Source: Microbacterium sp. Clip185
GTDB taxonomy: Bacteria > Actinomycetota > Actinomycetes > Actinomycetales > Microbacteriaceae
Assembly: GCF_028743715.1 (NCBI RefSeq)
Contig: NZ_CP117996.1
Location: forward strand, 1,116,001 to 1,180,000
DNA: 64,000 nucleotides
Reading direction: 5' to 3'
In this document: positions 46,809-58,539 of the stretch, piece by piece
How positions within the stretch are numbered: position 1 is the stretch's first letter
How the letters are laid out: each line of letters starts with the position of its first letter
Made by a program: the position numbers and the translations under genes
Notes under the pieces: generated by a model
What the model was told of the DNA's origin: nothing
The model's input: the letters and a program-made list of their open reading frames with translations, nothing else
The model's database searches: none

Positions 46809-47597
46809 ATGACGCCCTCGGATGCCGCGCCCCCGACTTCGAACATCACCGTGCGTCGGGGCGACCCGCTGGTCGTGCTCAGCGACGTCCAGAAGCACTA
46901 CGGCGACTTCCAAGCCCTCACCGACATCGACCTCACCGTCAACCGCGGCGAGGTCGTGGTGGTCATCGGGCCGTCCGGTTCCGGCAAATCGACGCTGTGC
47001 CGGACGATCAACCGCCTCGAGACGATCACGAGCGGCACCATCACGATCGACGGCGAGAAGCTGCCGAGTGAGGGCAAGCAGCTTGCGGCGCTGCGAGCCG
47101 ACGTCGGCATGGTCTTCCAGTCGTTCAACCTCTTCTCTCACCTCACGATCCTCGAGAACGTCACACTGGGGCCGATCAAGGTCAAGGGCATGAAGAAGGC
47201 GGACGCCGAGCGCGAGGCCAAGACGCTGCTCGAGCGTGTCGGGGTGGCCCATCAGGCGAACAAGCTCCCCGCCCAGCTCTCCGGCGGCCAGCAGCAGCGC
47301 GTCGCGATCGCCCGTGCCCTCGCGATGACACCGAAGGTCATGCTCTTCGACGAGCCCACAAGCGCGCTGGACCCCGAGATGATCAACGAGGTCCTCGACG
47401 TCATGACCTCGCTCGCCGAGTCCGGCATGACCATGATCGTCGTGACCCACGAGATGGGCTTCGCGCGCAAGGCCGCCGATCGCGTCGTCTTCATGGCCGA
47501 TGGGCGCATCGTCGAAGAGGCAGCGCCCGACACGTTCTTCACGTCGCCCAAGAGCGAGAGAGCGAAGGACTTCCTCTCCAAGCTCATCACCCATTGA
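46809..47597 (+). CDS. Amino-acid ABC transporter ATPase (GluA-like)
   Basis: 262 residues. Walker [10 protein letters not shown] at about 55-63, Q-loop [12 protein letters not shown], signature LSGGQQQR, Walker [16 protein letters not shown]-switch VVTHEMGFA: the polar amino-acid (PAAT) subfamily. First of a four-gene uptake operon. TAGTCT (46797-46802) stands exactly six bases before the ATG, so the operon mRNA is leaderless. Confidence 0.94.
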
Positions 47598-47646
47598 CCT
47601 CGAGACGTTCTTCCCGCACCAATCCCCCCACAGCAAGGAGAGAGAA

Positions 47647-48561
47647 ATGCGCACCACACGACTGACCGCCCTTCTGGGACTCGCGGCCGTCGCGACCCTC
47701 GGCCTCACGGCCTGCAACAGCGGATCACCGGCCCCGGGCGGCGCTGCCGGCGGCTCCGAGGGAACCGACGAGAGCTCGGTCTGGTTCGAGACCGCGAGCG
47801 ACGTCTCGCTCGAGGGCAGCCCCACCTTCGACCGCATCACCGAGCGCGGTGGAGTGATCGTCGGCGTCAAGGAGGACCAGCCAGGACTCGGCTTCCTGGA
47901 CGTCACGACCAACGAGCGCACCGGGTTCGACATCGACATCGCCCGCTGGATCGCCGCATCCCTCGGCTACGGCGAGGAGGACATCACCTTCCAGCCCATC
48001 GCCTCCGCGAACCGCGAGCAGGCGATCGTGAACGGCGACATCGACTACTACGTCGGCACCTACTCGATCACGGACAAGCGCAAGGAGCAGATCGACTTCG
48101 CCGGCCCCTACTTCATCACGGGCCAGGGCCTGCTGGTCGCCAGCGACAGCGACATCGCCAGTGAGGCGGACCTCGGCCCCGACACCAACGTGTGCTCCGC
48201 CACCGGTTCCACCCCGATCCAGAACATCAAGGCGAACTTCCCCGGGGTGCCCACGACCGAGTTCGACGTCTACTCGGCCTGCGTCGAGGCGTTGCTGAAC
48301 GGCCAGGTGGATGCGGTCACGACCGACCAGGCCATCCTGATCGGCTACGCGGCCCTGTACCCCGACGAGCTCAAGGTCGTCGGCGAGCCCTTCAGCGAGG
48401 AGCGCTACGGCGTCGGCCTCGAGAAGGGCGACACCGTCCTGCTCGAGCACATCAACGAGATGTTCACCGACGGCGGCGACATCTGGCAGGCCATCTTCGA
48501 CAAGAACCTCGGTGCGTCCGGGATCACCGTCGAGCAGCCCGCGGTCGACGCAGCCAGCTGA
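47647..48561 (+). CDS. Glutamate-type ABC transporter substrate-binding lipoprotein
   Basis: 304 residues. A lipoprotein signal with lipobox LTAC (Cys about residue 23) anchors an SBP_bac_3 domain: GGVIVGVKEDQPGLGFLD, GFDIDIARWIAASLGY, YYVGTYSITDKRKEQIDFAGPYF, ACVEALLNGQVDAVTTDQAIL. The closest known types bind glutamate or aspartate/glutamine. AAGGAGAGAGAA precedes the ATG. Confidence 0.93.
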   Translation: MRTTRLTALLGLAAVATLGLTACNSGSPAPGGAAGGSEGTDESSVWFETASDVSLEGSPTFDRITERGGVIVGVKEDQPGLGFLDVTTNERTGFDIDIARWIAASLGYGEEDITFQPIASANREQAIVNGDIDYYVGTYSITDKRKEQIDFAGPYFITGQGLLVASDSDIASEADLGPDTNVCSATGSTPIQNIKANFPGVPTTEFDVYSACVEALLNGQVDAVTTDQAILIGYAALYPDELKVVGEPFSEERYGVGLEKGDTVLLEHINEMFTDGGDIWQAIFDKNLGASGITVEQPAVDAAS

Positions 48562-48630
48562 CAGACCCCGAGGTGAGGGCGGTCTCCCCGGTGGGGCCGC
48601 CCTCACCGGATCACGGTAAGGACCTCTGAG

Positions 48631-49278
48631 ATGAACGTGATCGTCGACAACCTCGACATCTGGGGCATCGCACTGCGCAACACGTTGCTGCTCTTCTTCG
48701 CGGGTGCGGCCATCGCGCTCGTGCTGGGCACGCTCGTCGGCGCGATGCGCGTCTCCCCGGTGCCGATCGCCCGCGCCGTCGGCACGGTGTACGTGAACAT
48801 CGTGCGCAATACTCCGCTCACGGTCATCTTCTTCTTCTTCGCTTTCGGATACCCGGCCCTGGATCTGCCGAATCCGGGCTATACGGTGCTCGCGATCTGG
48901 GCGCTCGGCATCTACACCGCCACGTACGTCGCCGAGGTCCTGCGCTCCGGCATCAACACGGTGCCCGTCGGTCAGGCGGAAGCCGCTCGGGCGCTCGGGC
49001 TGACGTTCGGGCAGGTGATGACGCTCGTGATCATGCCGCAGGCGTTCCGTTCGGTGGTGCCGCCCATGATGAGCGTGCTCATCGCGCTGCTCAAGAACAC
49101 GACCATCGCCGCCGGCTTCTCGGTCGCCGAACTCGGCGTCATCCGTGCGAACCTCAGCGAGCGGGGCGAGAACGCGCTCGTGGTGCTGCTGTGGGTCGCG
49201 GCCATCTTCGTGGTGATGGTGCTGGTGCTCTCGCTGGTCCAGCGACGACTCGAGAACCGATGGAGGGTGGCGCGATGA
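48631..49278 (+). CDS. Amino-acid ABC transporter permease (GluC-like)
   Basis: 215 residues, His/Glu/Gln/Arg-type permease with five hydrophobic helices. The N-terminal LRNTLLLFFAGAAIALVLGTLVGAM and the EAA loop EAARALGLTFGQVMTLVIMPQAFR couple to the ATPase. ATGA overlap with the second permease gene. Confidence 0.93.
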   Translation: MNVIVDNLDIWGIALRNTLLLFFAGAAIALVLGTLVGAMRVSPVPIARAVGTVYVNIVRNTPLTVIFFFFAFGYPALDLPNPGYTVLAIWALGIYTATYVAEVLRSGINTVPVGQAEAARALGLTFGQVMTLVIMPQAFRSVVPPMMSVLIALLKNTTIAAGFSVAELGVIRANLSERGENALVVLLWVAAIFVVMVLVLSLVQRRLENRWRVAR

Positions 49279-50186
49279 GCTCCGTTCTGTACGACCTGCC
49301 GGGCCGTCGCGCGATCATCCGCAACCGGATCATCGGCGTCATCACCGTGCTCGTCATCCTCGGTCTCGGCGGTTTCGTCGTCTACCGATTCATCGAGACC
49401 GGTCAGTTCTCCGCCGAGAAGTGGTACATCTTCACCTTCACCACGGTGTGGGAGCAGATCCTCGCGGCCACGGGACGCACGCTGGCCGCGTTCGCCGCCG
49501 CCGCCGTGGCTTCGATCGTTCTCGGATTCGTCCTCTCGCTGGGCCGCATGTCCGATCACGCGTGGGTGCGCTGGCCGGCCACGGCGATCATCGAGCTGTT
49601 CCGTGCCGTGCCCGTGCTGATCCTCATGATGCTGCTCTACTACGGCCTGCCCGTCGTGGGGGTGCGTCTCGAGGCCTACTGGGCCGTCGTGATCGCACTC
49701 GCCGTGTACAACGGCTCCGTGCTCGCGGAGGTCATCCGCGCGGGCGTCGAGTCGCTGCCTCGCGGACAGAGCGAGGCAGGCTATGCCCTGGGGCTGCGCA
49801 AGGCCGGCGTGATGCGTCTCATCCTGCTCCCGCAGGCCGTCCGCGCCATGCTGCCGGTGATCGTCGCGCAGCTCGTCGTGACGCTCAAGGACACGGCGCT
49901 CGGCTACATCATCACCTACAACGAGCTGCTCTACTACGCCCGGCTCATCGGCACGCAGGCCCAGTACGACCGACCCATCCTGCAGGCCGGCATGGTGGCG
50001 GCCGCGATCTACATCGCCCTGTGTCTCGTGCTCGCCGGCATCGCCAAGTGGGTCGAGGTCCGGATGCGTTCCTCGCAGCGCGCCGGCCGGGGGACCCAGC
50101 CCGGGGCGTTGGCTCGGGCGACCACCGACACGGAGGTCATCGCGGCGCAGCGAGGCGCCGGCAAGTACGACTCCAGCGCCCTCTGA
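49275..50186 (+). CDS. Amino-acid ABC transporter permease (GluD-like)
   Basis: 303 residues from ATG at 49275. Five or six membrane helices; EAA loop QSEAGYALGLRKAGVMRLILLPQAVR. A longer hydrophilic C-terminus (about 40 residues) extends into the cytoplasm. It completes the four-gene glutamate-type uptake operon. Its stop lies two bases from the stop of the convergent biotin operon. Confidence 0.92.
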   Translation: MSSVLYDLPGRRAIIRNRIIGVITVLVILGLGGFVVYRFIETGQFSAEKWYIFTFTTVWEQILAATGRTLAAFAAAAVASIVLGFVLSLGRMSDHAWVRWPATAIIELFRAVPVLILMMLLYYGLPVVGVRLEAYWAVVIALAVYNGSVLAEVIRAGVESLPRGQSEAGYALGLRKAGVMRLILLPQAVRAMLPVIVAQLVVTLKDTALGYIITYNELLYYARLIGTQAQYDRPILQAGMVAAAIYIALCLVLAGIAKWVEVRMRSSQRAGRGTQPGALARATTDTEVIAAQRGAGKYDSSAL

Positions 50187-50188
50187 GC

Positions 50189-50785
50189 TCAGCGCACGCC
50201 GCGTGCCGTCAGCGCCTCGCCGAGCTCATCGGCGTGCTTGAGGGCGAGAACGAGGAACGGCACGACGAAGAAACGGATGCCGCCACCCGCGCCGCGGGCG
50301 CGCTGCGCCTCGCGTACCTGATGCGCCAGGCGGATGAGGGTGGGAACGGCGCCGAACGCCACGACCAGCAGGAGGGCGGCGCGGCCCGGGTCGCGTCCGA
50401 TGACGCGCAGCGGCGCCAGCGCGCGTTCGAAGACCTCCAAGAGGGCCGTGACGGGCGTCGTGAGGGCGAGCAAGGCTGCCAGCACGACGGCCGAGACGAT
50501 GCGCACCGTGCCGATCGTCGCCGCCTCCGGCCCGAGGAAGATCACCTGCCCCACGAAGCTCATCACGACGAGGAGTCGAAGCGCCCAGACCTGCCGCGCC
50601 AGCTGCCCCCATCCCGTCCCGGGGACTGCGTAGCAGAGCAGACCGAGACCCGCGGAGACGGCGCACGAGAGCCACGTGGCGGGCAGAAGCGATACCGCGA
50701 GCACGAGAAGCAGCAGCAGAAGCGTCTTGGGCCCGGCCGGCATCCGATGCCACGGCCCAGTGCCCGGTCGGTACAGGCTCAGCAT
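50189..50785 (-). CDS. bioN: ECF transporter T component (BioN/CbiQ family)
   Basis: 198 residues from ATG at 50785, overlapping the ATPase gene by seven bases. Several membrane helices, with the T-component coupling helices around VFERALAPLRVIGRDPGRAALLLVV and VREAQRARGAGGG (the ARG motif that meets the ATPase). Last gene of the minus-strand operon bioY-ligase-thiolase-bioM-bioN, so it energises biotin uptake with BioY and BioM. Confidence 0.9.
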   Translation of the reverse strand: MLSLYRPGTGPWHRMPAGPKTLLLLLLVLAVSLLPATWLSCAVSAGLGLLCYAVPGTGWGQLARQVWALRLLVVMSFVGQVIFLGPEAATIGTVRIVSAVVLAALLALTTPVTALLEVFERALAPLRVIGRDPGRAALLLVVAFGAVPTLIRLAHQVREAQRARGAGGGIRFFVVPFLVLALKHADELGEALTARGVR

Positions 50786-51465
50786 CCGAGACTCGTCGCG
50801 TACTCGCGCACGATGTCCCGCGCCTCGCCGACGGCGACCACTCGGCCCCCTGCCATATGCACGGCCACCTCGCAGCGCTCGGCCAGAGCGAGGTCGTGGG
50901 TCACGAGGAACAGGAGATGGCCGGTGTCCGCGAGGAGATGGTCGGCGACGATCCGGGCGTTGCGGCCGTCGAGGTAGGCGGTGGGCTCGTCGGCGATGAC
51001 GAGATCCGGTTCTCGCACGAACGCGCCGCACAGGGCCAGGAGCTGCTTCTGTCCGCCCGAGAGATCGTGCGCCGAACGGTCGCCGAGGTCGGTGAGCCCG
51101 AAGCGGCTCAGCGCCGCGTTCACCCGGTCCGTCCGCTCGGCGCGAGGCATCCTCTCGCCGCGCAACGAGAAGGCGACGTCCTCGGCGACGGTCGGCATGA
51201 CGATCTGTGCGTCGGGGTTGCTGAAGACGACCGCCACCCGGCGACGGAGCTCGGCTGCATCGCGGACGGGGTCGAGCTGCAGCACGTCGGCGGTTCCGGC
51301 GGTCGGTGCGACGAGGCCGCCGACCACCCGCGCGAGCGTCGACTTGCCGGAGCCGTTGTCGCCCACGACGGCGACCGTGCGCGCATCGAGAACCAGATCG
51401 AGATCGCGGAGCACCTCGGTATCGCCGAGTCGCACTCCGAGTCGCTCCAGGCGGATCGCGTTCAT
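50779..51465 (-). CDS. bioM: ECF transporter ATPase (BioM/CbiO family)
   Basis: 228 residues. Walker A VGDNGSGKST (35-44), Q-loop VVFSNPDAQIVMPTV (the NPDxQ form typical of ECF ATPases), signature LSGGQKQLLAL, Walker B LVIADEPTAYLD, His switch LVTHDL. The start overlaps the thiolase stop by four bases. Confidence 0.93.
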   Translation of the reverse strand: MNAIRLERLGVRLGDTEVLRDLDLVLDARTVAVVGDNGSGKSTLARVVGGLVAPTAGTADVLQLDPVRDAAELRRRVAVVFSNPDAQIVMPTVAEDVAFSLRGERMPRAERTDRVNAALSRFGLTDLGDRSAHDLSGGQKQLLALCGAFVREPDLVIADEPTAYLDGRNARIVADHLLADTGHLLFLVTHDLALAERCEVAVHMAGGRVVAVGEARDIVREYATSLGC

Positions 51466-52586
51466 CTCACCACCTCGACGACCATTGCGACGCCCATGCC
51501 CCCACCCACGGATGCGGCGGCGACACCGATGCTCCCGGACGGGCGTCCGGCGCGTACCAGCCGCGAGAACAGCCGCACGAGCGCGACCGCACCGCTCGCA
51601 CCCCAGGGGTGCCCGAGCGCGAGCGCTCCGCCGTCGGCGCAGACCCTGGCATCGTCGTCGGCCAGCCCCAGTCGGCCCAACACCGCGAGGGATTGCGCCG
51701 CGAACGCCTCGACGATCTCGAACGCCTCGACCTGCGCGAGTGGGGTGCCGGATGCGGCCAGCGCCGCCTCGATGGCCGGGGCCGCGCCCAGGCCGGGATA
51801 GGCCGGGTCGACGCCGACGACGGCGTGCGCGCGGACGAGGAGTCCCGGCACGTGTGCCACCCGCGGCGCGCTGACGAGGGCGACCGCGGCTGCCCCGTCG
51901 CCGATACGCGTGGCCGTGCCGGCCGTCACGGTGCCGTTCTCCCGCAACGGCGTGAGTCGGGGCAGAAGCGCCAGCGCGCCGCCGACGGCGTCATCGGCGC
52001 TCACGCCCTCGATCGGGACGATCTCCGCCGCGAAGCGCCCGGCCTCCTGAGCGGCGACCGCGCGCCGGTGGCTGCGGGCGGCCGCCGCATCCTGACGCTC
52101 GCGGTCGATGTCGTCGAGACGGGCGAGTGCGTCGGCGGCGTCGATCATGTCGGGGTCGGGCCAGCCGGTCGGCGCGAACGGTGCGCGCTCGAACGAGATT
52201 CCGTCGATGCGTCGTTCCGGAGCCGTCGACGCGCTCTCGACCCCGCCCGCCAGCCGGGGGCGCTCGTCACCGGCAGCGATCGCCTTCGCGGCCTCGATGA
52301 CCGCGGCCAGCCCGCTGCCGCACTGCCGGTCCAGCGTCGCACCCGGAGTGCGCACGCCGAAGCCCGCGGCCAGCGCGGCGAGGCGGGCGGTGTTGCCGCC
52401 CGGTCCGCGACAGTTGCCGAGGACCACGTCTGCCACGTCTATCGGCGCGCCCATCGCGCGAGCCGCATCGTCGGCCGCGGCGCGCAGCACCGGCGCGGCC
52501 AGTCGATCGGCGCTCACCTTCGCGAGCGCCCGGCCCCGCGTGGTCAGCGGGGAGCGGCGCGCCGCCACGATCAGCACGTCAGACAC
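51462..52586 (-). CDS. Thiolase-family protein with altered active site, in the biotin operon
   Basis: 374 residues from GTG at 52586 (GGAGAGGTG upstream). The thiolase fold is clear; the nucleophile is kept (C89 in DRQCGSGLAAVIEA), as is the His of GGALALGHPWGASG. Two other active-site motifs are changed: NEAFA reads VEAFA (the oxyanion-water Asn is Val), and the C-terminal CIGGGMG reads SVGGGMG (the proton-shuttling Cys is Ser). Reversible Claisen chemistry is doubtful; it might act as an acyltransferase or a decarboxylating condensing enzyme. It lies between the ligase and bioM. The homologous place in Bacillus is yhfS, next to bioY2 (yhfU). Confidence 0.85.
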   Translation of the reverse strand: MSDVLIVAARRSPLTTRGRALAKVSADRLAAPVLRAAADDAARAMGAPIDVADVVLGNCRGPGGNTARLAALAAGFGVRTPGATLDRQCGSGLAAVIEAAKAIAAGDERPRLAGGVESASTAPERRIDGISFERAPFAPTGWPDPDMIDAADALARLDDIDRERQDAAAARSHRRAVAAQEAGRFAAEIVPIEGVSADDAVGGALALLPRLTPLRENGTVTAGTATRIGDGAAAVALVSAPRVAHVPGLLVRAHAVVGVDPAYPGLGAAPAIEAALAASGTPLAQVEAFEIVEAFAAQSLAVLGRLGLADDDARVCADGGALALGHPWGASGAVALVRLFSRLVRAGRPSGSIGVAAASVGGGMGVAMVVEVVR

Positions 52587-53676
52587 GGGGCACCTCTCCT
52601 GACGCCAGTCGTCGCTCCACCTCGGCGCGGGCGATCTTGCCGGATGAGGTGCGGGCAATCGTACCGGCGAACCACAGGCGCGGCCGGTGAGCCGGTGCGA
52701 ACAGGCGGGCGGACGCCGCGCGCAGCGTCGCCGCGTCCACGGCGCCGGGATGTGCGGGTTCGATCAGGGCGGCAACGAGTCGGCCGACGCCGGGCGCGGG
52801 CAGGCCGACGACGACGGCGTCCGCCACGCCGTCCACGGTGCGCAGCACCCTTTCGAGCTCCGAAGGGATGACGGTCGCTCCCGCGGTCTGGATGGCGTCG
52901 TCCTCTCGCCCCGCCACCCTCAGCCGGCCGCCCTCCATCCTCCCGCGATCGCCGACGCTGGCCCATGCGCCGTCGCGCCGCAGCGGACCGGGCCCGCCCA
53001 GGTAACCGAGCGCGGTGTAGGCGGAGCGCGCCCAGATGACGCCACCGCGCACGGCGATCTCCACGCCGGGGAACGGGCGCAGGCCCCGTCCGTCGTCGTC
53101 GTACGCGACGAAGGACAGCTCTGCTGCGCCGTAGTACTCGACGACGCGGATGCCGCGGGCCAGGGCCGCGGCCCGCGTGTCGGCGGGTAAGGGCATCCCG
53201 CCGACGAGTGCCGCGCGCAACAGCGGCGCGCGCTCCGAGGCGAGGACCGCGGCGAGGTGGGTGGGCGTGCCGTGGAAGAGGGTTGCGCGCGAGCTGGTGG
53301 CGGCGAGTTCGGGGGCGGGGCCGCTGGTCAGCGCGTGGACCAGGGAGAAGAGCGTCAGTGACGAACTCGGCGGGGCGGGCAGCAGCACGATGTCGCCAGG
53401 GCGCGCGCCGAGCAGCCGCTCCACGGCCGGGAAGGATTTCGCCCAGGAGGCATCTGTGCGCACCACGACACGCGGTGCGCCCGACGTGCCGGAGGTGAGA
53501 GCCGCCCAGTGGGCGCCGGCGGGCGCGGGCGTCTGCGAGAGGAGCGAGAGGACTCCGACGCGGACCTCTGCGGGCCAGCGTTCGTCGAGCACCAGCGGGA
53601 TGCGGCCCGATCGTCGCGCCAGGGCGAGGCGTGCCGGAGCATCGCGCGCCTCGATCGGAACGACGAAGCAGCTCAC
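52579..53676 (-). CDS. Compact acyl-CoA synthetase (AMP-binding) in the biotin operon
   Basis: 365 residues from GTG at 53676, overlapping the bioY stop (GTGA). ANL-superfamily enzyme: phosphate loop HWAALTSGTSGAPRVVV, aromatic/ATP motif VVEYYGAAELSFVAY, hinge region VGDRGRMEGGRLRVAGREDDAIQ and the catalytic C-terminal Lys in TSSGKIARAEVERRL. About 120-150 N-terminal residues shorter than usual ligases, as in short MenE-like forms, yet all adenylation motifs are present. The acid substrate is unknown; context suggests a biotin precursor or a fatty acid. Bacillus yhfT is the positional analogue. Confidence 0.85.
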   Translation of the reverse strand: MSCFVVPIEARDAPARLALARRSGRIPLVLDERWPAEVRVGVLSLLSQTPAPAGAHWAALTSGTSGAPRVVVRTDASWAKSFPAVERLLGARPGDIVLLPAPPSSSLTLFSLVHALTSGPAPELAATSSRATLFHGTPTHLAAVLASERAPLLRAALVGGMPLPADTRAAALARGIRVVEYYGAAELSFVAYDDDGRGLRPFPGVEIAVRGGVIWARSAYTALGYLGGPGPLRRDGAWASVGDRGRMEGGRLRVAGREDDAIQTAGATVIPSELERVLRTVDGVADAVVVGLPAPGVGRLVAALIEPAHPGAVDAATLRAASARLFAPAHRPRLWFAGTIARTSSGKIARAEVERRLASGEVPRV

Positions 53677-54278
53677 GCGGCGGCGACCGCCGGGGCGCGC
53701 CACTGCCGCCGGAAGGCTCGCGGGTACCCGCGCACGAGGGTGCCGACGATCAGCGTCGTCACGACGGCCTTGACGATATCGCCGGGCAGGAACACGAGGC
53801 CCGACAGCGCCGCCTCGCCGAGGCCGATGCGCAGCACGAGAGCCTGCACCGGGATGCCGACGGCGTAGACGACGAGCACGCCCCCCACAAGGGTGCCGAG
53901 GAACGTGCGCCACCAGACCGGACGGCGCCCGGCGGCGTGCACGATCAGTCCGATGACCACCGCACCGACGAGCCAGCCGAGCAGATATCCACCCGTCGGG
54001 CCGAAGAAGACCCCGATGCCGCCCCGCCCGCCCGCGAGCAGCGGCAGGCCCGCGGCGACGAGGGCGAGCACTGCGGTGACGGAGAGCGCGCCGACGGCCG
54101 GGCCGAGGATCGCGCCGGCGAGCATGACCCCGAGTGTCTGTGCGGTGATGGGCACCGCGCCGAAGATGGTGAACGCGCCGGGGACGCCCAGCACGGCGAT
54201 GACGGCGGCGAAGACGCCGGCCCTGGCGATGTCGGTGGCGTCGAGACGGCGGCGCACCGCGGGGACGAGCGCGGTCAT
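53673..54278 (-). CDS. bioY: Biotin transporter substrate-binding subunit BioY
   Basis: 201 residues, six hydrophobic helices. Family signatures: PITAQTLGVMLAGAILGP, GIGVFFGPTGGYLLGW (biotin-binding loop) and GLVFLPGDIVKAVV. S component of the ECF biotin transporter, with BioM and BioN encoded at the other end of the operon. GGAGGATCC precedes the ATG. Two perfect BioQ-type operators lie directly upstream. Confidence 0.93.
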   Translation of the reverse strand: MTALVPAVRRRLDATDIARAGVFAAVIAVLGVPGAFTIFGAVPITAQTLGVMLAGAILGPAVGALSVTAVLALVAAGLPLLAGGRGGIGVFFGPTGGYLLGWLVGAVVIGLIVHAAGRRPVWWRTFLGTLVGGVLVVYAVGIPVQALVLRIGLGEAALSGLVFLPGDIVKAVVTTLIVGTLVRGYPRAFRRQWRAPAVAAA

Positions 54279-54287
54279 GGATCCTCC

Positions 54288-54323
54288 TGAACGGCGTTCA
54301 TGTGAACACTGTTCAGGTACAGT
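54288..54323. promoter_or_regulatory. Tandem BioQ-type operators and promoter between bioY and the TetR gene
   Basis: Two perfect palindromes TGAAC-N3-GTTCA: TGAACGGCGTTCA (54288-54300) and TGAACACTGTTCA (54303-54315), two bases apart. TACAGT (54318-54323) is the -10 box of the TetR gene, six bases from its ATG; read on the other strand the same spot gives TACTGT for bioY. Corynebacterial BioQ binds TGAAC-N3-GTTAC/GTTCA-like sites, from memory of the published motif. Confidence 0.85.
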
Positions 54324-54329
54324 ACCCGC

Positions 54330-54962
54330 ATGACGGCCGACGGCTCAAACTCCTCTCGCGCGCCCCGTCGCTCGAAGACGGACGTCGTGGATGCGGCCCT
54401 CGTGCTGCTCGATCGCGTGGGGCTGCCGGACTTGTCTATGCGCCGCCTCGCGGATGAGCTCGGCGTACAGCCGAGCGCGTTGTACTGGCACGTGGAGAGC
54501 AAGCAGGAACTGCTCGCCGCCGTCAGCGCGCGCATCCTCGCCCCGGTCACCGAGGACGCCTCGTTCGCCGCGACGGTGCAGCCGGGTGAGGCGGCACGGG
54601 TGCTGGGGGAGCGCCTCCATGACCGATTGCTCGCTCATCGCGACGGGGCCGAAGTCGTCTCGAGCTCCCTCGCGCTCGGGCTCGTGGATTCGCCCCTGCA
54701 TCTCGCGCTCGCCGAGCGCTATCCGGATGCCGGGCAGGCGCCGCAGGTCCTGGCCGACGCCGTCACGCACTTCGTCGTGGGATACACCTTCCACGAGCAG
54801 CAGCGCACCGCGGCCGACACCTTCGGGGCCGTGGCCCGTACCGCCGCGCTCACGCCGGCCGACGCGACGAGCGGGCGTGCGGATCCCTTCGCCGCGGCGC
54901 TCGGGCTCATCACCGCCGGGGCGGAGCTCCCGGCCGCTTCGGAGTACTCAGCGCGCCGGTAG
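54330..54962 (+). CDS. bioQ: TetR-family regulator, BioQ-like repressor of the biotin operon
   Basis: 210 residues. N-terminal helix-turn-helix SMRRLADELGVQPSALYWHVESKQELLAAV is of the TetR/BioQ type (ALYWHV), followed by a TetR_C-like effector domain. It starts at ATG 54330, set by TACAGT six bases upstream; it is leaderless and the operators cover its promoter, so it is probably autoregulated. Divergent from bioY. The gene symbol rests on context plus operator match, not on alignment. Confidence 0.8.
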   Translation: MTADGSNSSRAPRRSKTDVVDAALVLLDRVGLPDLSMRRLADELGVQPSALYWHVESKQELLAAVSARILAPVTEDASFAATVQPGEAARVLGERLHDRLLAHRDGAEVVSSSLALGLVDSPLHLALAERYPDAGQAPQVLADAVTHFVVGYTFHEQQRTAADTFGAVARTAALTPADATSGRADPFAAALGLITAGAELPAASEYSARR

Positions 54963-54973
54963 ACTCGATCACC

Positions 54974-56020
54974 GTGTCCGACGCACCCCAGAACGAGATC
55001 ACCCCTGATGCGGTGAGCGCCGCGGTCGACGAGGCGCTGGCCGCCATCGCCGCAGCCGCAGACTCCGCCGCCCTCAAGGCCGCGCGCAGCATCCACGCCG
55101 CAGAGGGATCGCCGCTCGCGCGGCTGAACGCCCGCCTGCGCGACGTCCCGAACGAGCGCAAGGCCGAGTTCGGCAAGCTCGTCGGCCAGGCCAGGGCACG
55201 AGTGAACCAGGCGCTCGCCGCCCGCGAGGCGGAGATCGAGACGGCAGAGACGGCGGCGCGCCTCGAGGCCGAGCGGGTCGACATCACGGCGATCCCTGTG
55301 CGCACGCGGGTGGGGGCGCGGCATCCGCTGACGCTCCTGCAGGAGCAGATCGGCGACATCTTCGTCGGGATGGGATGGGAGATCGCGGAGGGGCCCGAGC
55401 TCGAGCACGAGTGGTTCAACTTCGACGCTCTCAACTTCGACGTCGATCACCCGGCGCGTCAGATGCAGGACACGTTCTTCGTCGACCCCGTCGACCGCCA
55501 CCTCGTCATGCGCACCCACACGAGCCCCGTGCAGGTGCGGTCGATGCTCGAGCGCGAGCTTCCGATCTACGTCGTGTGCCCCGGGCGGGTGTATCGCACC
55601 GACGAGTTCGATGCCACCCACCTTCCGGTCTTCAGCCAGTTCGAGGGACTCGTGATCGACAAGGGGATCACGATGGCGCACCTGAAGGGCACGCTCGACC
55701 ACGTCGCGCGCCAGCTGTTCGGGCCGGAGGCGAAGACGCGCTTCCGCGCCAACTACTTCCCCTTCACCGAGCCCAGCGCCGAGCTCGACCTCTGGCATCC
55801 CACCTTCAAGGGCGGCGCCCGATGGATCGAGTGGGGCGGATGCGGCATGGTCAACCCCAACGTCCTGCGAGCGGCGGGCATCGACCCGCAGGAGTACTCC
55901 GGCTTCGCCTTCGGTATGGGTATCGAGCGCACGCTGATGTTCCGCAGCGACGTGCAGGACATGCGCGACATGGCCGAGGGTGATGTGCGATTCAGCGAGC
56001 AGTTCGGGATGGTGGTGTGA
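54974..56020 (+). CDS. pheS: Phenylalanyl-tRNA synthetase alpha subunit
   Basis: 348 residues from GTG at 54974. N-terminal coiled coil (to about residue 95), then the class II core: HPLTLLQEQIGDIFVGMGW, motif 2 RTHTSPVQVRSM and YRTDEFDATHLPVFSQFEG, motif 3 GFAFGMGIERTLM. TAGACT (54960-54965), which includes the stop codon of the TetR gene, is eight bases upstream. pheT overlaps by one base. Confidence 0.96.
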   Translation: MSDAPQNEITPDAVSAAVDEALAAIAAAADSAALKAARSIHAAEGSPLARLNARLRDVPNERKAEFGKLVGQARARVNQALAAREAEIETAETAARLEAERVDITAIPVRTRVGARHPLTLLQEQIGDIFVGMGWEIAEGPELEHEWFNFDALNFDVDHPARQMQDTFFVDPVDRHLVMRTHTSPVQVRSMLERELPIYVVCPGRVYRTDEFDATHLPVFSQFEGLVIDKGITMAHLKGTLDHVARQLFGPEAKTRFRANYFPFTEPSAELDLWHPTFKGGARWIEWGGCGMVNPNVLRAAGIDPQEYSGFAFGMGIERTLMFRSDVQDMRDMAEGDVRFSEQFGMVV

Positions 56021-58539
56021 TGCGCGTTCCGCTGTCGTGGTTGCGTGAGTTCGTCGAGGTTCCTGCCCAGGCCTCTCCCGAGGACGTGCTGGCCGCGTTC
56101 GTGCGGGTCGGCTTCGAGGAGGAGGACGTCCACCGCTTCGAGTTGCAGGGACCGATCGTGGTGGGCGAGGTGCTCTCCTTCGAGGAGGAGCCGCAGTCCA
56201 ACGGCAAGACGATCCGGTGGTGCCAGGTGCGTGTCGCTCCCGAGGGCGAGACGGCCGCCGACGGCGGCGCCGACATCCACGGCATCGTCTGCGGCGCCCA
56301 CAACTTCTTCCCCGGTGACAAGGTCGTCGTGACCCTGCCCGGTGCGGTGCTTCCCGGGCCTTTCCCGATCGCGGCGCGCAAGACCTACGGTCACGTGTCC
56401 GACGGGATGATCGCCTCTGCGAAGGAACTGGGGCTCGGCAGCGAGCACTCCGGCATCCTCCGTCTCGTCGAGCTCGGCATCGATGCGCCGGTGGGAACCG
56501 ATGCGATCTCGTTGCTGGGTCTCGATGACATCGCCGTGGACATCAACGTCACCCCGGATCGCGGCTACGCACTGTCGATCCGCGGCGCGGCGCGCGAGTA
56601 CTCGCACGCGACGGGCGCGGCCTTCCGCGATCCCGCGGACCGGCCGATCGACGACCCGGGTACGGGCTTCCCGCTCGCCGTGAACGACGAGAACCCGATC
56701 CGCGGCCGCGCGGGCGTCACGGAGTTCGTCGCCCGCGTCGTGCGCGGCGTCGACGCGTCCCGACCCACGCCGCCGTGGATGATCACGCGTCTGACGCTGG
56801 CTGGCATCCGTTCGCTCGGCATCCTGATCGACATCACCAACTACGTCATGCTGGAGCTCGGCAACCCGATCCACGGCTACGACCTCGACAAGCTGACCGG
56901 CGGGATCACCGTGCGCCGGGCGCGGGCGGGGGAGAAGCTCGAAACCCTCGACGGGACCGTCCGCACGCTGGATGCCGAGGACCTGCTCATCACGGACGAC
57001 TCGGGCCCCATCGGCCTCGCCGGTGTCATGGGCGGCGCCGCCACCGAGATGACCGATGCCACCACCAACGTGCTGATCGAGGCGGCGATCTTCGACCAGG
57101 TGTCGATCGCCCGCACCGCGCGGCGCCACAAGCTGCCGTCGGAGGCGTCGCGTCGCTTCGAGCGCGGCGTGGATCCGGCGGTGCCGTACGCTGCCGCGCA
57201 GCGCGTGGTCGAGCTCATGGTGCAGTACGCCGGCGGCACGGCCGATGCGACCGGCGCTGCCCTCGGCGCGGAGCTGGAGCGCGAGGCCATCGCGCTCGAG
57301 TACGACTTCGTGCCGGGTCTCATCGGCGTCGACTACACGCGCGAGCAGATCGTCGCCGCGCTGGAGCTCATCGGGGCCACGGTGCACGACACCGGCTCGG
57401 CCTGGTTCGTCGATGCGCCGACGTGGCGCCCCGACCTGACCGACGCGTGGACGCTCGCCGAGGAGGTCGCTCGCATCGAGGGATACGACCGCATCCCCTC
57501 GGTGCTGCCGGTCGCGCCCTCGGGACGAGGCTGGACCCCGGCGCAGCAGGGCCGTCGCCGTGTCTCGAACGCGCTCGCCGCGGCGGGATACGTCGAGACG
57601 CCGTCGTTCCCGTTCGTCTCGCGCGAGCAGAACGACCTGCACGGCAGTGCCGAGGGGTCGCCGATGCCCAGCATCAAGCTGGCCAACGCGCTCGATTCGC
57701 AGGCGGCCTATCTGCGTCGCTCGCTCGTGCCGGGCCTGCTGCAGGTCGCGCACCGCAACGTCGCGCGTGGACTGGTGGATCTCAGCCTGTTCGAGACCGG
57801 CTCCGTGTTCCTTCCCGAGCCCGGCATCACGTACGGGACGTCGTTCGTGCCGCCGCTGGCGGTGCGACCGGATGCGGCCACGCTCGCGCAGCTCGACGGC
57901 TCCATCCCGCCCCAGCGCCGCCACGTGGCCGTCCTCGTGGCGGGCGCCGTCGCGCCCAAGCAGCCGGGACGCGCCGCAGAGGCGGCGGGTCTGACCGAAG
58001 CGCTTGACGCGGTGCGCGTCATCGCGGCCGCGGCGGGCGTGGAGGTGACGATCGCGCAGGGCCAGCGTGCGGCCCTGCATCCGGGTCGTACCGGCATCGT
58101 CTGGGTCGACGGCACCGCCGTGGGTTACGTGGGAGAGCTGCTGCCGGCCGTGTCCGAGGCCGCTGACCTGCCGGGCCGCATCACGGTGGCCGAGCTGGAC
58201 CTCGACCTCCTCGTCGAGATCGCGGGATCGCGCGTCGTCGCCGCGTCGCTGTCGGGATACCCGGCGGCAACGCAGGACGTCTCACTCGTGGTTCCCGCCG
58301 ACGTCGCCGCCGCGGATGTGCGCGCTGCGCTCGTCGACGGAGCCGGCGCCCTCCTCGAGTCGGCGCGGCTCGTGGACGACTACCGCGGTCAGGGTGTGGA
58401 TGAGGGATCGAAGAGCCTGACCTTCGCGCTGCGCTTCCGCGCGGCAGACCGCACGCTGACCTCGGCGGAGGCGACCGAGGCGAAGCTCGCGGGTGTCGCC
58501 GTCGCGGCCGAGCGGTTCGGAGCCGTCCTGCGCGACTGA
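56020..58539 (+). CDS. pheT: Phenylalanyl-tRNA synthetase beta subunit
   Basis: 839 residues from ATG at 56020, overlapping the pheS stop (TGATG). Starts MRVPLSWLREFVEVP; tRNA-binding (OB) domain at about 40-150, B3/B4 editing domain (GITVRRARAGEKLETLDGT, ITDDSGPIGLAGVMGG), B5 (VGVDYTREQI-like), pseudo-catalytic core, and a C-terminal anticodon-binding FDX-ACB domain (YPAATQDVSLVVPADV). With PheS it forms the alpha2-beta2 enzyme. Confidence 0.96.
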   Translation: MRVPLSWLREFVEVPAQASPEDVLAAFVRVGFEEEDVHRFELQGPIVVGEVLSFEEEPQSNGKTIRWCQVRVAPEGETAADGGADIHGIVCGAHNFFPGDKVVVTLPGAVLPGPFPIAARKTYGHVSDGMIASAKELGLGSEHSGILRLVELGIDAPVGTDAISLLGLDDIAVDINVTPDRGYALSIRGAAREYSHATGAAFRDPADRPIDDPGTGFPLAVNDENPIRGRAGVTEFVARVVRGVDASRPTPPWMITRLTLAGIRSLGILIDITNYVMLELGNPIHGYDLDKLTGGITVRRARAGEKLETLDGTVRTLDAEDLLITDDSGPIGLAGVMGGAATEMTDATTNVLIEAAIFDQVSIARTARRHKLPSEASRRFERGVDPAVPYAAAQRVVELMVQYAGGTADATGAALGAELEREAIALEYDFVPGLIGVDYTREQIVAALELIGATVHDTGSAWFVDAPTWRPDLTDAWTLAEEVARIEGYDRIPSVLPVAPSGRGWTPAQQGRRRVSNALAAAGYVETPSFPFVSREQNDLHGSAEGSPMPSIKLANALDSQAAYLRRSLVPGLLQVAHRNVARGLVDLSLFETGSVFLPEPGITYGTSFVPPLAVRPDAATLAQLDGSIPPQRRHVAVLVAGAVAPKQPGRAAEAAGLTEALDAVRVIAAAAGVEVTIAQGQRAALHPGRTGIVWVDGTAVGYVGELLPAVSEAADLPGRITVAELDLDLLVEIAGSRVVAASLSGYPAATQDVSLVVPADVAAADVRAALVDGAGALLESARLVDDYRGQGVDEGSKSLTFALRFRAADRTLTSAEATEAKLAGVAVAAERFGAVLRD

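Follow-up and report, generated by a model that had tools for sequence, protein, structure and literature searches.

Why should an operon for biotin uptake carry genes for an acyl ligase and a thiolase-like enzyme? The question is raised by a locus of Microbacterium sp. Clip185, which lies in a window of 64,000 nucleotides (the whole stretch of DNA that was analysed). Reading the sequence, we observed five intact minus-strand frames, each with a start and a stop codon, in the order bioY-ligase-thiolase-bioM-bioN and with overlaps of 4, 8, 4, and 7 bp, divergent from a TetR-family gene (Table 1). Coordinates and sequence confirm the layout given in an initial annotation, including the two perfect palindromes in between. 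The Pfam families of all six genes exceed Pfam's cut-offs, and the S, A, and T components of a BioYMN ECF biotin importer are co-encoded (PF02632, PF00005, and PF02361). A promoter scan found no sigma-70-like site.

Table 1. Features of the biotin-uptake operon and its control region (positions in the window).
Feature	Position	Strand	Description
bioN	50189..50785	-	Transmembrane subunit of the ECF importer; CbiQ PF02361
bioM	50779..51465	-	ECF importer ATPase; PF00005; top NCBIfam model is an ECF ATPase, under its cut-off
Thiolase-fold protein	51462..52586	-	GTG start; Thiolase_N/C PF00108/PF02803
AMP-forming acyl ligase	52579..53676	-	Short (365 aa); GTG start; PF00501 + PF13193
bioY	53673..54278	-	Substrate-binding subunit of the biotin ECF importer; PF02632, 119.7 bits
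Perfect BioQ box TGAACGGCGTTCA	54288..54300	.	TGAAC-N3-GTTCA
Perfect BioQ box TGAACACTGTTCA	54303..54315	.	15 bp from the first box
TetR-family regulator, probable BioQ	54330..54962	+	Divergent from the operon; TetR_N PF00440

Both boxes lie in the 51-bp gap between the TetR gene and bioY. Shuffling the window 100 times never yielded a perfect box, and the whole genome (3,305,635 bp) contains four: the two described here and two that precede a second bioY, followed by bioB. We then analysed 80 actinobacterial loci picked by ligase similarity. A perfect box was found upstream in 73 out of 78 evaluable loci, and the 15-bp step from box to box recurs 53 times. Of 133 perfect boxes, 131 are located within 400 bp upstream of the start of the cluster's bioY or ligase gene, and the remaining two precede a bioB that heads one cluster; the reversed motif, used as a control, does not occur in the 1.15 Mb of sequence of these loci. 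Eight loci lack bioY in the cluster; in six of these a separate box stands 47-259 bp upstream of the ligase match. The closest solved chains to the TetR protein are 5xs9, 5yek, and 5yej (E about 1e-24), the latter two presumably M. smegmatis BioQ structures, and tetracycline repressors score about 1e-14. TetR gene and boxes together support the earlier view that the regulator is of a type other than BirA. TGAAC-N3-GTTCA is given as the BioQ motif in passages of a study of C. glutamicum, where importer genes, box sequence, and a TetR-type regulator are shared with the window operon; however, the operon is described there as bioYMN, whereas here two enzyme genes are added, and in Corynebacterium bioQ lies apart from the bio genes, whereas here the regulator gene adjoins the operon (PMC3398298).

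The thiolase gene follows the ligase gene in 80 out of 80 loci, bioY is part of the cluster in 72 out of 80, and the same five genes are kept in several gene orders. With the boxes, this conserved tie to biotin uptake supports the initial proposal that the biotin link of the pair is real. The refuting condition set initially, that the pair be only sporadic beside bioY, gave a mixed outcome: where present, the pair is nearly always part of a biotin locus. Of the 138 genomes of the home family that have bioY, however, only 25 carry it, a ligase match (E<=1e-45) being absent in 113. The pair is an accessory of bioY genomes in this family. Phylum-wide, 40 of 396 genomes passed E<=1e-30; 30 loci were retrieved and the gene context was examined for 12. 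One locus, from a 64% complete genome, reads bioY-ligase-bioM-bioN without the thiolase gene.

Outside the phylum, the pair accompanies bioY in Paracoccus, Thioclava, Microvirga, and Azospirillum. BioY matches were found in 37 plasmid records; four of the ten examined carry the pair (P. yeei, Microvirga, Thioclava, and Paracoccus SMMA_5) and six do not, some of the ten having been chosen on sight of a ligase or thiolase gene close by. Two further BioY plasmid records with the pair, from Nonomuraea and Azospirillum thermophilum, were reached via thiolase and ligase matches. In the two Rhizobium loci examined the setting is not a biotin one: the pair follows an acyl-CoA thioesterase gene and there is no bioY close by. 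Biotin control of the alphaproteobacterial pairs is putative, since a scan upstream of eight such loci with what we take to be the BioR motif found no site with one mismatch or less. One BioR-like site adjoins a bioY locus that lacks the pair.

What sets the thiolase-fold protein apart, called atypical from the start, can now be specified as the missing second catalytic cysteine. The protein retains Cys89 and His326 (His348 in Z. ramigera numbering) and has Val292 in place of Asn316 (NEAF motif) and Ser359 in place of Cys378. We compared 240 proteins (120 close relatives and 120 from a second search): the nucleophile Cys89 and His348 are present in all 240, while the base Cys378 is kept in none, with S, G, or A in its place. 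Asn316 is lost in 148 of 240, the position being Val in the window protein and all 120 close relatives and Asn in 92 of the 120 from the second search. Both residues are retained by all of the canonical thiolases included in this alignment (6/6). The accompanying tree was built without the three home-genome rows. Ordinary thiolase chemistry is unlikely given the loss of Cys378 in 240 out of 240, and from these residues condensation by the usual mechanism appears unlikely. Since Asn316 is retained in Azospirillum, Rhizobium, and Ectobacillus members and in one actinobacterial locus (L098), some C-C chemistry may be possible there. A Cys378Ser mutant of the Zoogloea ramigera biosynthetic thiolase was reportedly made. 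The window protein is naturally the equivalent of C378S with Cys89 and His348 intact, and differs from that mutant in that Asn316 is also replaced by Val, a pattern found in 120/120 close relatives. According to passages on mycobacterial TLP1, that protein also has a thiolase fold without the thiolase residues; TLP1 lacks the nucleophilic cysteine, whereas the family described here retains Cys89 (PMC3406046).

The ligase gave o-succinylbenzoate-CoA ligase NF005877 (101.5 bits) and NF005797 (95 bits) as top NCBIfam models, both under cut-off. With its Pfam domains over cut-off and six catalytic positions in place, it qualifies as an AMP-forming acyl ligase: S62, G63, E186, D243, R257, and K347, which we take to be motif positions of these enzymes, are each invariant (81/81). 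Sequence distances correlate between ligase and thiolase (r=0.81, 69 of 80 loci) and between ligase and bioM (0.84), which suggests shared operon inheritance and no special ligase-thiolase bond. On NF005212 (PRK06690, a thiolase-type equivalog with a cut-off of 498) the thiolase-fold protein scores 247.8 bits, its best specific model, with another home-genome thiolase close behind at 225.5 bits. NF005797 (PRK07638, an acyl-CoA synthetase equivalog with a cut-off of 518) and NF005212, presumably models of Bacillus types, come first among the specific models on the five alphaproteobacterial pairs that were tested, and NF005212 is also the top-scoring model for a Bacillota thiolase relative. The kinship with the Bacillota pair suggested by the initial annotation is thus probable on the thiolase side only, where NF005212 is shared. 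The ligase matches NF005877 better than NF005797, and on NF005212 ordinary thiolases of the home genome come not far below the window protein (225 vs 247 bits).

BirA control of yhfS-yhfT, with bioY, is described for B. subtilis and S. aureus (PMC6391492, PMC7235819, PMC11089781). The Bacillota yhfT-yhfS genes are likewise a ligase and a thiolase-type gene under biotin control, a likeness drawn from descriptions and models. The window operon differs in having a BioQ box instead of BirA control, in placing the pair between bioY and bioMN, in missing both equivalog cut-offs, and in a ligase of only 365 aa. A review states that B. subtilis YhfT makes acyl-adenylates and no CoA thioesters, that it supplies ACP, and that its deletion reduces surfactin; to apply this chemistry to the window ligase is a stretch, given 95 bits against a cut-off of 518. 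The products of S. aureus yhfS and yhfT are termed 'putative', and the passages give YhfS no function beyond the thiolase name. Searches of open-access literature listed no paper that deals with the loss of Cys378 or with such a pair in Actinomycetota or Alphaproteobacteria.

We also examined biotin synthesis and attachment. In the home genome bioB is present and no match was found for bioF (E<=1e-30), bioD (1e-10), or bioA (1e-100), which leaves bioB alone of the synthesis set at these thresholds. Among 51 pair-bearing genomes, bioB was found in 9 (no match at E<=1e-30 in 42), bioD in 7, and bioA in 5 (no match at E<=1e-100 in 46), and the bioB-bioA-bioF-bioD set in 5. For bioF, 23 of the 51 have matches at E<=1e-30 with none over cut-off, a raw count that is unusable; most are probably 2-amino-3-oxobutyrate CoA ligases, and five genomes have the match beside bioB, bioA, and bioD. 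Biotin protein ligase was found in 51/51, 50 of them over cut-off, and replacement of this enzyme by the pair was rejected on that ground.

Our preferred reading, held tentatively and at somewhat less than an even chance, is a biotin-starvation operon in which the importer is joined to a ligase/acyl-transferase module, made at low biotin, that would not make biotin and perhaps serves the use of fatty acids. When biotin runs short, the pair itself probably activates an acyl group and transfers it. As the boxes suggest, BioQ would repress the operon at plentiful biotin; a shortage would yield one transcript for the BioY-BioM-BioN importer and the two enzymes. The ligase, with its motifs intact, would use ATP to convert a carboxylic acid to an acyl-adenylate or acyl-CoA, and the thiolase-fold partner would load the acyl group on Cys89, assisted by His348. 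No C-C bond is predicted to be made or broken, the base Cys378 being gone and Asn316 also in most lineages; the acyl group would pass elsewhere, for instance to acyl-carrier protein, CoA, or a different non-carbon nucleophile. The most likely benefit, a weaker step of this reading, would be that the cell can draw on ready-made fatty acids at times when its biotin-dependent acetyl-CoA carboxylase lacks the cofactor, and the acyl-handling idea of the initial annotation survives here as the favoured one. Acyl transfer is suggested by the report of YhfT passing acyl-adenylates to ACP and by the Rhizobium kin located after a thioesterase gene.

The best-surviving rival, on balance unlikely, holds that the substrate is biotin itself: the ligase would make biotinyl-adenylate or biotinyl-CoA from biotin or an imported derivative, and the partner would keep the biotinyl group or hand it on, so that the scarce vitamin is trapped or salvaged just after uptake. 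In two phyla and in several gene orders the pair is tightly linked to the importer, and most of the genomes concerned lack bioB; this fits the proposal, as does the cluster that has the ligase and bioY-bioM-bioN without a thiolase. However, biotin protein ligase in 51/51 pair-bearing genomes leaves no missing step for a biotin-acting pair to fill, the two Rhizobium loci lie beside a thioesterase gene, and the sole biochemical report found, that on YhfT, concerns fatty acids. A biotin relay, in which the ligase activates freshly imported biotin or a derivative as biotinyl-adenylate or biotinyl-CoA and the repurposed thiolase of a starving cell stores the biotinyl group as a Cys89 thioester or delivers it to an acceptor protein, we consider rather improbable; if true, several phyla would have a previously unrecognised route that handles a vitamin as an acyl thioester, alongside the universal biotin protein ligase.

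Similarly doubtful is a partner that works as a normal ketothiolase or in chain elongation, with another group standing in for Cys378. The fold is full-length, the general thiolase model TIGR01930 is passed (272 vs 240.55 bits), Asn316 is kept in the Azospirillum, Rhizobium, and Ectobacillus types, and an S. aureus abstract states that BirA regulates fatty acid elongation; against this, the 240 relatives have all lost Cys378, and 148 of them Asn316, which the canonical enzymes keep. That the pair is an operon passenger with no biotin-related role is very improbable: its rarity in the home family and the Rhizobium pair without bioY would suit a passenger, but the association recurs across phyla and gene orders, with its own BioQ boxes when apart from bioY. 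Least credible is the main example given initially, that the pair supplies biotin synthesis with a pimeloyl- or glutaryl-type CoA precursor; the lack of the downstream genes already largely refutes this reading, for which co-regulation with biotin genes and the bioB of the box-bearing set speak, and against which stand the absent bioF, bioA, and bioD matches at home, the scarcity of bioA and bioB in the 51 genomes, and the loss of the usual condensation base with Cys378.

The question is now narrowed to a partner that is probably no working thiolase and a pair that is not for making biotin. The pair was found here beside biotin-uptake genes in two phyla, to which the literature adds Bacillota, under another regulator, and it is open to study in strains without biotin synthesis. 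If the fatty-acid reading is true, some source names of these proteins, such as 'acetyl-CoA C-acetyltransferase' and 'O-succinylbenzoate--CoA ligase', would be misleading, and fatty-acid salvage would be wired directly to vitamin shortage in these bacteria.

The initial annotation placed five minus-strand genes here, and gene ends read from the sequence bear out this layout, with all six gene products assigned to families.

Operon genes and the neighboring regulator gene (positions in the window)
Feature	Position	Strand	Basis
bioY	54278-53673	-	ends from sequence, Pfam
ligase	53676-52579	-	ends from sequence, Pfam
thiolase-like gene	52586-51462	-	ends from sequence, Pfam
bioM	51465-50779	-	ends from sequence, Pfam
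bioN	50785-50189	-	ends from sequence, Pfam
TetR gene	54330-54962	divergent from operon	Pfam

In the order bioY-ligase-thiolase-bioM-bioN the genes overlap by 4, 8, 4, and 7 bp, which fits a single transcript from bioY to bioN with translational coupling. The 51-bp gap between the TetR gene and bioY contains two perfect TGAAC-N3-GTTCA boxes, a sequence predicted as a BioQ site (PMC3398298); a perfect box was found in 0 of 100 shuffles of the window. The flanks (window 47500-50186 and 54974-58539) carry genes for an ABC transporter of the polar amino-acid type, comprising a binding protein and two permeases, along with pheS-pheT, with no sign in these intervals that the neighbors belong to the biotin operon.

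When genome contigs were scanned with the ligase alignment, 307 relatives came up, of which the best 80 were used; since these loci were picked by ligase similarity, the counts describe only this ligase subfamily. The thiolase gene follows the ligase gene in 80/80 of them. bioY lies immediately upstream of this ligase-thiolase pair in 71 of the best 80 loci and within the cluster in 72, the additional one being a Garicola locus (L073) with the order bioB-bioY-bioM-bioN-ligase-thiolase. A perfect box is present within 400 bp upstream in 73 of the 78 loci with readable upstream DNA; 54 loci have more than one box, and neighboring boxes are spaced 15 bp in 53 box pairs. In 1.15 Mb, 131 of 133 boxes fall inside the upstream windows and the remaining two precede bioB of L073; the reversed control motif occurs 0 times in the same DNA. 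Eight of the best 80 loci have the pair without bioY in the cluster: six have their own box 47-259 bp upstream, and no upstream box was found in the other two (L014 and L067). BioY is encoded elsewhere in the genome in 6/6 tested of those eight, and every copy is accompanied by bioM and bioN as well as a perfect box.

In the home-family sample the ligase was detected (E<=1e-45) in 25 of 150 genomes, with the thiolase adjacent in 25/25, bioY adjacent in 23/25, and a perfect box within the retrieved DNA in 18/25; BioY is present in 138/150, including all 25 ligase genomes. The tandem box pattern occurs in 23/150 family genomes and the control pattern in 0/150. The pair is thus a minority accessory of bioY, yet nearly always in a biotin setting. 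The initial annotation had named sporadic occurrence beside bioY as evidence against its proposal; this applies to how few genomes carry the pair and not to where it sits. Across the phylum sample, 40 of 396 genomes pass at E<=1e-30; 30 loci were fetched and gene context was inspected for 12. Home genome aside, six of the 12 have ligase and thiolase together (at least 156 bits), five of these with bioM or bioY. One locus (ligase 138 bits) reads bioY-thiolase-bioM-bioN-ligase with a box, another (L178:3854-7216; ligase 136 bits, genome 64% complete) reads bioY-ligase-bioM-bioN without the thiolase, and three have the ligase alone.

The pair is also found in other phyla. Among 37 plasmid records with bioY matches, 10 chosen non-randomly were inspected, with the pair in four and no pair in six. 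The order is bioY-ligase-thiolase in a Paracoccus yeei plasmid record and bioM-bioN-bioY-ligase-thiolase in those of Paracoccus sp. SMMA_5, Microvirga, Azospirillum thermophilum, and A. oryzae; in a Thioclava plasmid record the pair is oriented opposite to bioM-bioN-bioY. A nitroreductase-family gene adjoins the pair in three Rhodobacterales loci (L124:7776-8447, L126:6496-7173, L136:7817-8509), sitting between bioY and the pair in L126. A major facilitator superfamily transporter gene immediately follows the pair in A. oryzae (L134:7571-8806), and one is also annotated in A. thermophilum (L133:7375-8624). Two Rhizobium loci (L132:4555-7713, L135:4581-7695) have a thioesterase-ligase-thiolase set with a Cys378-less thiolase (the thioesterase is of YbgC/FadM type in L132) and no bioY within 5 kb. 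A thiolase relative from Ectobacillus ponti (Bacillota), known here as a protein sequence, is 68% identical to the A. oryzae protein.

NCBIfam models NF005797 and NF005212 presumably represent the YhfT and YhfS types of Bacillus. The top-scoring model is NF005797 for the ligases of Microvirga (358 bits, runner-up 246), A. oryzae (327 vs. 250), R. johnstonii (258 vs. 184), P. yeei (145 vs. 84), and Thioclava (138 vs. 91); the window ligase is closest to NF005877 (101.5 bits vs. 95 for NF005797), and no model matched the Nonomuraea ligase at E<=1e-50. The closest named relatives of the window ligase are Microbacterium ligases (82-83% identity), which points to Microbacteriaceae as the home family. 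Its six catalytic positions are unchanged in 81/81 proteins. The Nonomuraea (480 aa, L123:4542-5984) and Microvirga (492 aa, L125:6459-7937) ligases are full-length; the window, Paracoccus, and Thioclava ligases (365-381 aa) are missing N-terminal sequence. With the general TIGR01930 set aside, NF005212 is the best specific model for 8/8 thiolases tested. The Ectobacillus protein scores 461 bits (cut-off 498), and the model separates the window protein only weakly (247 bits vs. 225 for another home-genome thiolase).

Active-site residues (Zoogloea ramigera numbering) were tabulated for 240 proteins, two lists of 120. Among the matches listed, Cys89 and His348 are kept in 240/240 and Cys378 is replaced in 240/240 (Ser 120, Gly 92, Ala 28), with Val (120), Asn (92), or Met (28) at position 316. 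Further sets, which overlap with these, were also scored: the 78 of the 80 loci with enough sequence have C, V, and H at 89/316/348 followed by S (74) or A (4) at 378, and 27 of 29 further genome-sample rows reach position 378, all 27 with Ser or Ala, and have Val, Thr (7), or Asn (1) at 316. Six canonical thiolases in one alignment retain all four residues, and in a 31-row tree, where these six rows are the only canonical contrast, 25 Cys378-less proteins lie on one side of a branch with SH-aLRT 100. In thiolases Cys89 is described as the nucleophile, Cys378 as the base, and Asn316/His348 as stabilizing the enolate (PMC3406046). Given these roles, the thiolase-fold protein likely retains acyl-enzyme formation and has likely lost the condensation half-reaction.

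The home genome (3.3 Mb, single contig, 99.99% complete) has four perfect boxes, two in the window and two at 3201798-3201824. Behind the latter, 14 bp apart, lie a second bioY and then bioB (L005:7832-9495; home genome ~3201831-3203494). bioB and biotin protein ligase are both present, and no match was found for bioF (E<=1e-30), bioD (1e-10), or bioA (1e-100). The second bioY-bioB set, in a genome with no match to these three genes, may serve dethiobiotin scavenging. Biotin genes were counted in 51 genomes that carry the pair, namely the home genome and the genomes behind 50 of the 80 loci. Biotin protein ligase is found in all 51 (50 above cut-off), bioB in nine, bioD in seven, and bioA in five. 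bioF-type matches occur in 23/51, 0 above cut-off, and accompany bioB, bioA, and bioD in five. The proposal that the pair makes a precursor for biotin synthesis is not supported by the bioB, bioD, and bioA counts in these 51 genomes; the pair very probably does not serve biotin synthesis.

A supply of fatty acids can lower the biotin need of auxotrophs; no paper on this was found in the open-access library searched. The chief rival explanation is that the acyl group handled by the pair is biotin itself. According to a review (PMC10988940), B. subtilis YhfT makes acyl-adenylates that are handed to ACP, and no CoA thioesters, and surfactin falls 38-55% on deletion of any single one of four ligases including yhfT; S. 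aureus papers place the yhfS-yhfT pair under BirA control. Combined with the lost active-site residues and the occurrence in auxotrophs, the YhfT biochemistry and the BirA control favor the reading that the pair is an acyl activation and transfer module for times when acetyl-CoA carboxylase is without biotin.
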